Origin: Streptomyces sp. NBC_00539
GTDB taxonomy: Bacteria; Actinomycetota; Actinomycetes; Streptomycetales; Streptomycetaceae
NCBI RefSeq assembly: GCF_036346105.1
Contig: NZ_CP107811.1
Span: 5,537,501 to 5,601,500, forward strand
DNA: 64,000 bases
Direction: 5' to 3'
Part shown: positions 57,899 to 58,664 of the stretch, piece after piece
Numbering within the stretch: position 1 is the first letter of the stretch
Layout: each line of letters begins with the position of its first letter
Notes under the pieces: generated by a model
Database searches by the model: none
What the model was told of the DNA's origin: nothing
What the model saw: only the letters and a program-made list of their open reading frames with translations
Program-made: the position numbers and the translations under genes

Positions 57899-58285
57899 CT
57901 ACGCGTACACCGGACCCGTGAACTTCTCGCCCGGTCCCTGGCCCGGCTCGTCCGGCACGATCGAGGCCTCGCGGAAGGCAAGCTGGAGCGACTTGAGGCC
58001 GTCGCGCAGCGGGGCCGCGTGGAAGGAGCTGATCTCGGTGGCGCTCGCGGTGACCAGGCCGGCGAGGGCGGTGATCAGCTTGCGGGCCTCGTCGAGGTCC
58101 TTGTGCTCGGAGTCGGGCTTGTCCAGGCCCAGGTTGACCGCCGCGGCGCTCAGCAGGTGCACGGCCACCGTGGTGATCACCTCGACGGCGGGCACGTCCG
58201 CGATGTCGCGGGTCATGGCGTCGTAGTCGGGAGCGTCCGGCGTGGAGCCGTCCTCGGTGGCGGGGGTGGGGGTCGCGTCAGTCAT
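57899..58285 (-). CDS. DUF1844-family protein
   Basis: A 128-residue helical protein of a conserved family of unknown function, typically located next to infC. The core is [30 protein letters not shown]...[16 protein letters not shown]. It has no signal peptide, and the mildly hydrophobic helix near residue 40 is not a clear membrane span. The start is ATG at 58283-58285. TATCGT (58293-58298, minus strand) lies 7 bases away and the GGAG within the spacer is too close to act as SD, so a leaderless message is possible. It is divergent from infC. Confidence 0.88.
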
Positions 58286-58359
58286 GCTCCACACGATAAG
58301 CCGGGTCGCGCCGGCCGCGGACCGCCCGGCTCCGGGTGAGCGGCCCTGGCGCGGAATGC

Positions 58360-58664
58360 TATATTGGGCTACGACCGGCCGGAGACCTGTGTCCCCGGCC
58401 CACAAGTGGAGGCTCCGATTCTCCCACCTGACCGCCTTTCGGGGCGGCGGGTCACCGGTCTGGTGGCATCCATCGTTCCGTACGGACGATGGAAAGCCGC
58501 CCGAGTCTGCGCCCCGCGGTTCGCACGCGACGGTGCTCCGGTTGTTTTGGAGCCCCTGCCTGTGTCCCGGCGGGGCTTTTTTGGTTCCCGCCGTGGCCGG
58601 TCTGACGACACCAACGTCAACGGCTGTCTGCCAGGCAGTCGTGTGGTGCTACCGAGGAGGATCC
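58360..58664 (+). ncRNA. infC leader RNA with terminator/antiterminator structures
   Basis: A TATATT -10 box (58360-58365) should start transcription near 58372, giving a leader of about 290 bases. Visible hairpins are GGCCGG/CCGGCC (58377-58400), GTGG/CCAC (58406-58427), CCGCC/GGCGG (58432-58447) and a near-perfect palindrome (58470-58492). Then comes GCTCC/GGAGC (58535-58553), whose 3' arm overlaps the 5' arm of an intrinsic terminator (58551-58582). CCTGTGTCCC occurs in the loop of the first hairpin (58386-58395) and of the terminator (58559-58568). This layout is typical of an attenuator. The regulating ligand or protein is unknown. Confidence 0.7.
58551..58582 (+). terminator. Intrinsic terminator (attenuator) in the infC leader
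   Basis: AGCCCC and GGGGCT close the stem, inner GCC/GGC extends it, and six T residues follow at 58577-58582. T-tailed terminators are rare in this window, and this one lies 82 bases before infC rather than after a gene. Confidence 0.78.

Follow-up and report, generated by a model that had tools for sequence, protein, structure and literature searches.

A conserved RNA element upstream of infC in actinomycetes, known in Streptomyces as a small RNA entry, is probably a transcription attenuator

In Bacillus, the infC-rpmI-rplT operon is preceded by the L20 leader (Rfam RF00558), in which transcription is attenuated through a terminator that competes with an alternative fold, as outlined in passages of PMC6097659 and PMC10931766; the former describes this leader as narrowly Firmicutes. 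A further L20 leader candidate was proposed for Deltaproteobacteria (PMC7247131), thus for another phylum than that of the leader studied here, with which it shares the idea of an L20 leader on a new scaffold. According to that paper, L20 is recognised by a signature made up of an AA dimer and two G-C pairs in succession. For Actinobacteria it lists leaders of L17 and L31, and the term "infC" does not occur in its main text. The infC 5' UTR of Mycobacterium tuberculosis was reported to be 326 nt long, with a UTR/CDS abundance of 2.6 in exponential and 4.9 in stationary phase (PMC3207917). It is thus a long UTR that outnumbers its own coding sequence, as an attenuator would give; the paper stresses homology with the infA UTR, and the species is absent from the loci named here. 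In Streptomyces, two Term-seq studies report 150 (PMC8269248) and 79 (PMC8914203) premature transcripts.

The window analysed here, a stretch of 64,000 nucleotides from Streptomyces sp. NBC_00539, contains the genes infC, rpmI and rplT in this order (IF3, L35 and L20 by Pfam), preceded by a leader with a divergent DUF1844 gene upstream and followed by a SpoU methylase gene (Table 1). An earlier note on this DNA, made from the letters alone, had described the leader as attenuator-like and as belonging to no recognised leader class. The latter statement has to be corrected, as positions 58370-58583 match Rfam RF02830 (Scr1601) over the full length of the model (positions 1-209) with 147 bits against a gathering cut-off of 100. 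The match ends in the U-tract, and both the ends and the terminator stem are those of the family. RF02830 is filed as a Streptomyces sRNA; in our reading it is the leader of an operon, contains an antiterminator and exemplifies an element spread over the class. The model finds 119 of 121 Streptomyces genomes (113 above cut-off); across the class, 80 of 394 genomes match at E<=1 and only 37 of 394 above cut-off, and 20 non-Streptomyces leaders compared with RF02830 gave two weak matches only. The covariance model of the Bacillus leader RF00558 matched nothing in the genome of the window up to E 10, and membership in this Firmicutes family was rejected; the junction of the window leader has its own core. 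There are two size classes of Streptomyces leader, of about 210 and about 170 nt; in the short class (L076, L078, L085, L086 and most of L089-L106) the hairpin that separates the 5' domain from the terminator in the window (58462-58501) is missing.

Table 1. Features of the infC leader and its operon, in positions of the window
Feature	Position	Strand	Partner, role or basis
-10 box TATATT of the putative leader promoter	58360-58365	+	sequence and TAnnnT statistics
Transcription start, expected	near 58371-58373	+	from the putative -10 box
P1, 5' strand GACC	58373-58376	+	partner 58457-58460
P1, 3' strand GGTC	58457-58460	+	partner of 58373-58376; class-wide alignment
Pa hairpin	58377-58400 (58377-58382 with 58395-58400)	+	Streptomyces alignment, fold; class-wide alignment
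Core strand CACAAGTGGAGGCTCC	58401-58416	+	OFF: AAGY junction and Pb 5' strand; ON: antiterminator strand (proposed)
Pb hairpin	58408-58424 (GGAG 58408-58411 with CTCC 58421-58424)	+	class-wide alignment
Pc hairpin	58426-58452 (ACCTG 58426-58430 with CGGGT 58448-58452)	+	class-wide alignment
Streptomyces terminator stem H_a, 5' arm GCCCCGC	58511-58517	+	Rfam structure; formable in 80/80 leaders
Inner hairpin H_c	58529-58560 (GACGGTGCTCC 58529-58539 with 58549-58560)	+	Rfam structure, Streptomyces alignment
Contested strand GGAGCCCCTGCCTGTG	58549-58564	+	partner is the core strand (antiterminator) or terminator-internal
Terminator 3' arm GCGGGGC	58570-58576	+	Rfam structure, terminator scan, alignment
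U-tract, intrinsic terminator	58577-58582	+	sequence, Rfam, terminator scan
Shine-Dalgarno GAGGAGG of infC	58654-58660	+	sequence; relatives examined have a purine-rich site at the same place
infC (IF3), start codon ATC 58665-58667	58665-59375	+	Pfam IF3_N, IF3_C
rpmI (L35)	59478-59672	+	Pfam PF01632
rplT (L20), candidate ligand	59776-60162	+	Pfam PF00453

An alignment of 66 Streptomyces leaders (A1) revealed a nearly invariant core, and the 5' half of the leader is one case of a conserved element in which four helices surround the core AAGYGGAG..CUCCCACC. The same arrangement, AAGYGGAG-loop-CUCCCACC, is also found upstream of infC in other families. Class-wide, the helices are P1 (GACC/GGUC), Pa, Pb (GGAG/CUCC) and Pc (ACCYG/CRGGU). 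The underlying class-wide alignment of the 5' domain comprises 46 hand-picked leaders, entry requiring a parsed P1. Here, 90.6% of the cells are paired compared to 85.7% with letters shuffled among the sequences (0 of 500 shuffles as high), pairing drops to 27-55% with the partners slid, and both sides have changed in 10 of 19 pairs against a shuffle mean of 6.8. Most changes fall in Pa, where all six pairs show changes on both sides and 72% of the cells pair, and in Pc, which is 97% paired and in which one pair reads CG in 25, UG in 11 and UA in 10 leaders. Pb is 100% paired in the 46 leaders and nearly invariant; since Pb and three pairs of Pc hardly vary, little covariation comes from them. 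For P1, a C-G to U-A change is seen in 6 of the 46 leaders. It reads GACC/GGTC in 79 of 79 parsed Streptomyces leaders, while among 100 parsed leaders from outside the genus GACC/GGTC occurs 64 times and GATC/GATC 13 times. That P1 pairs fully is in part an effect of the parser for P1 and Pc, which demanded complementarity and favoured GACC (179 distinct leaders parsed, 21 loci failed). With P1 read in this way, the 5' domain has a conserved structure with covariation, as is typical of ribosomal-protein leaders. P1 gains independent support from a TAnnnT box that precedes it by 4-22 nt (median 8 nt) in 78 of the 79 Streptomyces leaders and in 80 of the 100 from outside the genus, compared to 1.6 and 2.2, respectively, in the controls, which suggests that the element starts approximately at the transcription start.

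Of 296 genomes from the class, 189 contain the exact pattern AAGYGGAGN{2,14}CTCCCACC, once per genome with few exceptions, and these cover 81 of 114 genera. Its reversed control was found in 41 of the 296 genomes (manual count), and an infC match was present in 288 of the 296 genomes of the same draw. In the window's genome the full pattern has one match, which is the infC leader, and the reversed control also has one. Many genomes of families f18, f25, f34 and f36 and of part of f26 lack the exact core, either by divergence or by loss. A phylum-wide search with model R1 matched 25 of 346 genomes, all of them within the window's genus or class; this search with its stricter filters missed three genomes carrying the exact core (G122, G209, G230), so that absence elsewhere is weak evidence. 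We also considered that further core copies might form a regulon. This was rejected, as the loose pattern CAAGTGGAGGC gave 3 matches in the window's genome against 18 for its reversed control, and both matches outside the infC leader lack the CTCCCAC partner.

A second sample was obtained by scanning public genomes with the core pattern, yielding at least 119 stretches; the 80 loci among the matches listed all have actinobacterial names. In 78 of these 80 listed loci infC lies downstream of the core on the same strand, and the remaining two have only 223 and 140 nt of sequence after the core. Where a named locus extends 1.8 kb or more downstream, the order infC-rpmI-rplT is present in 59 of 60 cases, and none of 17 named non-Streptomyces loci has an Rfam gathering hit at the leader, both again among the matches listed. 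The sample overlaps with the first one: around the core, three of the 80 listed loci (L254, L265, L301) have the very sequence of a leader already included there. One 8-kb stretch with a core locus (L289, Microlunatus endophyticus) additionally contains an FMN riboswitch at 2292-2426 according to Rfam.

The location upstream of infC bears on the reading of Scr1601 as a stand-alone trans-acting sRNA, for which read-through into infC would be incidental. Such a role agrees with the Rfam label and with the expression of Scr1601 in S. coelicolor, the confirmation of which is repeated in PMC8388888; yet the same paper places the S. ambofaciens homologue in a UTR and not among its sRNAs, and PMC3765725 states, without names in the relevant passage, that 12 earlier-reported Streptomyces sRNAs resemble expressed 5' UTRs. 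As a trans-acting role would furthermore leave the antiterminator complementarity described below unexplained, we regard it as distinctly improbable. Rfam and the Streptomyces papers only suggest a short transcript from the leader.

Between the putative promoter and infC, the window carries a hairpin followed by a U-tract, i.e. the make-up of an intrinsic terminator. A terminator scan of 57900-60500 returned five sites, three of them overlapping at the leader end, compared to a shuffle mean of 1.6, and the leader folds better than its shuffles, with z -3.7 at full length and again z -3.7 when the 3' part is taken alone. The features listed in the earlier note are all found in the sequence where it had placed them. 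These include a T-tailed hairpin (58551-58582), which is borne out by the sequence and by the terminator scan, and a local hairpin (58535-58539 with 58549-58553) that shares 58551-58553 with the terminator 5' arm and had been taken for its competitor. To compare the possible stems we used 83 distinct Streptomyces leaders, of which 80 fit the search pattern for the fold, terminator and repeat tests. All 80 leaders can adopt the stem H_a (58511-58517/58570-58576 in the window), which adjoins the U-tract, and folds with it lie a median of 1.0 kcal/mol above the minimum; for the short stem of the earlier note the corresponding figures are 75 of 80 and 8.3 kcal/mol (range 0.8-20.9). In the window itself the short-stem fold, at -109.1, misses the minimum of -109.5 by just 0.4 kcal/mol. 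A screen of the full-length Streptomyces folds for the short stem in place of H_a found it in 0 of 80. The short terminator is thus possible in the window and disfavoured across the genus.

In its extended form, the local hairpin corresponds to H_c within the terminator arm. A switch with H_c as the antiterminator, opposed to the short terminator, would be in accordance with their shared bases, with A1 rows in which H_c has changed on both sides (e.g. L051, L085) and with the energy of the short-stem fold in the window. However, H_c fits inside the Rfam terminator stem, the short stem is costly and unformable in 5 of 80 leaders, and outside Streptomyces it is the distal core to which the arm of the terminator is complementary, so that this version of the switch appears improbable. 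An exact repeat, CCTGTGTCCC, is indeed present at 58386 and 58559, as had been noted. As a site for a common factor it was rejected, since only 2 of 80 distinct Streptomyces leaders have any 10-base word of the first hairpin region again in the loop of the terminator, i.e. the repeat is not conserved.

For leaders from outside Streptomyces a first, looser terminator caller gave visible mis-calls; a stricter caller was used alongside, and both results are given. By the stricter caller, a terminator-like hairpin with a T-rich run precedes infC in 97 of 120 distinct leaders, no terminator being called in the other 23; in the second sample, 64 of 67 non-Streptomyces leaders among the matches listed have a terminator. 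The other families with a called terminator have a plain hairpin, which in Streptomyces is elaborated by H_a and H_c. Attenuation might also work through ribosome stalling or a leader peptide. Leader peptides are in use elsewhere in Actinobacteria, as PMC8079986 describes, and some ATG occurs in 68 of 80 Streptomyces leaders. A Shine-Dalgarno-like site with a short ORF is found in only 25 of the 97 other leaders, though, and is thus not conserved, and in none of the 97 does a start codon follow GGAG of the core at a distance of 4-9 nt, which makes a leader peptide highly improbable.

Evidence for a switch comes from the complementarity of the core strand to the 5' arm and loop of the terminator. 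In Streptomyces, the best downstream partner of the core is the GGAGCC strand in 79 of 82 leaders. In an unbiased scan with the loose caller, 54 of 103 leaders had the core as the best upstream partner of their terminator arm, where shuffled arms predict 7.2; with the stricter caller this was the case in only 32 of 73 representatives (6.1 expected). For the 73 representatives, the pairing of the core amounts to -19.13 with its own arm, -16.51 with swapped and -11.82 with shuffled arms. Across 28 families (97 leaders), own arms give -18.63 and swapped arms -15.78 kcal/mol (permutation p<2e-5, kinship between families being ignored); the own arm is stronger in 20 of the 28 families and no better than the mean swapped arm in the other 8. 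Swapping only the variable flanks of the core likewise weakens pairing (Wilcoxon p=0.007; own favoured in 18 of 28 families). In the second sample, the 39 representatives among the matches listed gave -18.63 (own), -16.22 (swapped) and -12.07 (shuffled), own being better in 26 of 39; for the 28 listed representatives unlike the first sample, the values were -17.80, -15.42 and -11.91 (p<2e-5), with the own arm better in 18 of 28. Hence, the comparison across actinobacteria that the earlier note had proposed as a check reveals a class-wide complementarity that tracks its partner, although not in every family.

Within Streptomyces, a base immediately 5' of the core and the terminator loop change together: the combinations CACA/UGUG, CGCA/UGCG, CACA/UGCG and CGCA/UGUG were counted 49, 6, 0 and 5 times (Fisher 9e-6; 8 of 68 rows with other letters dropped). 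This association rests on about three changes of the core trait and about five of the loop trait on the tree, and a tree-corrected test has 2-3 pairs and is therefore powerless.

Folding of the nascent RNA is in line with the comparison. When the window RNA is folded up to 58563, the unconstrained fold is the antiterminator, 58401-58416 with 58549-58564, at -99.6 kcal/mol. Up to 58583, the terminator (-109.5 kcal/mol) is favoured over the antiterminator (-106.8 kcal/mol) by 2.7 kcal/mol. Nascent minimum-energy folds contain at least six core:arm pairs in 78 of 80 Streptomyces leaders (16.2 expected) and in 70 of 97 other leaders (16.3 expected). At full length, the called terminator is formed in 75 of the 97 other leaders, and 51 of the 97 adopt both states in turn; the Streptomyces folds are divided into 34 with H_a, 41 with the antiterminator and 5 with neither, and fix no default state. 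These energies and the split at full length suggest that little energy separates the two states, which is a requirement for switching. The small difference in the window would also suit a constitutive partial terminator without ligand, set by the speed of co-transcriptional folding, by pausing or by Rho. The conserved single-stranded AAGY and the junction suggest a recognition site instead, and we consider a ligand-free terminator improbable as well.

Taken together, the element, its conservation across the class, the mutual exclusion of the two structures and the complementarity that tracks its partner are computed here, whereas termination in cells, the direction of the response and the ligand are inferred. 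We propose that the infC leader is an attenuator in which the core strand acts as antiterminator against the terminator, with L20 as the most likely ligand, and assign this reading a probability of roughly 0.74. The attenuator-like character seen in the earlier note is therefore supported by comparison and folds, as is the contest for the terminator 5' arm; the competitor supported by the comparison is, however, the distal core strand 58401-58416 and not the local hairpin. During synthesis of the leader, the core strand would pair with the emerging strand 58549-58564, and this antiterminator would block the terminator such that RNA polymerase continues into infC. Binding of the ligand would stabilise the junction of P1, Pa, Pb and Pc in the 5' domain and lock the core strand in Pb. 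The terminator could then form, and transcription would end at 58577-58582, leaving a short RNA that would be the Scr1601 of Rfam.

With regard to the ligand, L20 is the natural candidate because it is encoded in the operon that the leader precedes and attenuates the same operon in Bacillus; its binding would result in a Bacillus-like feedback. The core contains an invariant AA beside nearly invariant GG:CC pairs, into which the L20 signature may be read, if weakly; TAAGTGG also occurs in the 23S rRNA of the window's genome and is too short to count.

The main alternative ligand is IF3, since almost every infC gene examined begins with ATC or, less often, ATT. The infC frame in the ORF list begins upstream of this codon, the list being limited to ATG, GTG and TTG starts. 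The ATC start is kept in relatives (ATT in some genera), and in at least 13 loci an in-frame stop no more than 12 codons upstream leaves it as the sole candidate. Among the matches listed, 56 of 78 named loci have ATC and 17 of 78 have ATT. At one locus (L108), the first infC codons (ATC...GAGCCCCG repeated) are briefly duplicated at the gene start. In E. coli the infC start codon is AUU. Free IF3 could act both on the same attenuator and on the AUC start codon of infC, the first gene of the operon. We know of no case, though, in which IF3 acts through a structured leader terminator, which speaks against this option. E. coli infC is regulated by IF3 according to PMC10931766, whereas in Bacillus it is L20 that senses the same operon, as passages of PMC6097659 and PMC10931766 state. 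IF3 as the ligand in place of L20 thus seems unlikely. The wider claim of an actinomycete switch class, ancestral to the class, in which an invariant strand alternates between a four-helix sensor and an antiterminator and free IF3 is the ligand, is slightly more doubtful still. If it holds, IF3 would set infC transcription through the leader and infC translation through the AUC start, with L35 and L20 carried along.

The Streptomyces transcript already has its sRNA entry. The proposed attenuator of the infC operon has an RNA architecture of its own and is spread over the class; no description of an actinobacterial infC attenuator was found in the open-access articles searched, and such a search is no proof of novelty. 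The conserved ATC or ATT start of infC is a codon that gene callers can miss. If the attenuator with L20 as ligand holds true, Rfam has the leader RNA for Streptomyces only and labels it a small RNA, and this entry would become a testable feedback switch with a covariance model and an exact pairing to mutate. It would add another case of differing scaffolds in front of the same operon, in Bacillus and in Actinomycetes, and in many actinomycetes a leader RNA would govern a conserved operon that serves both the assembly of ribosomes and the initiation of translation.
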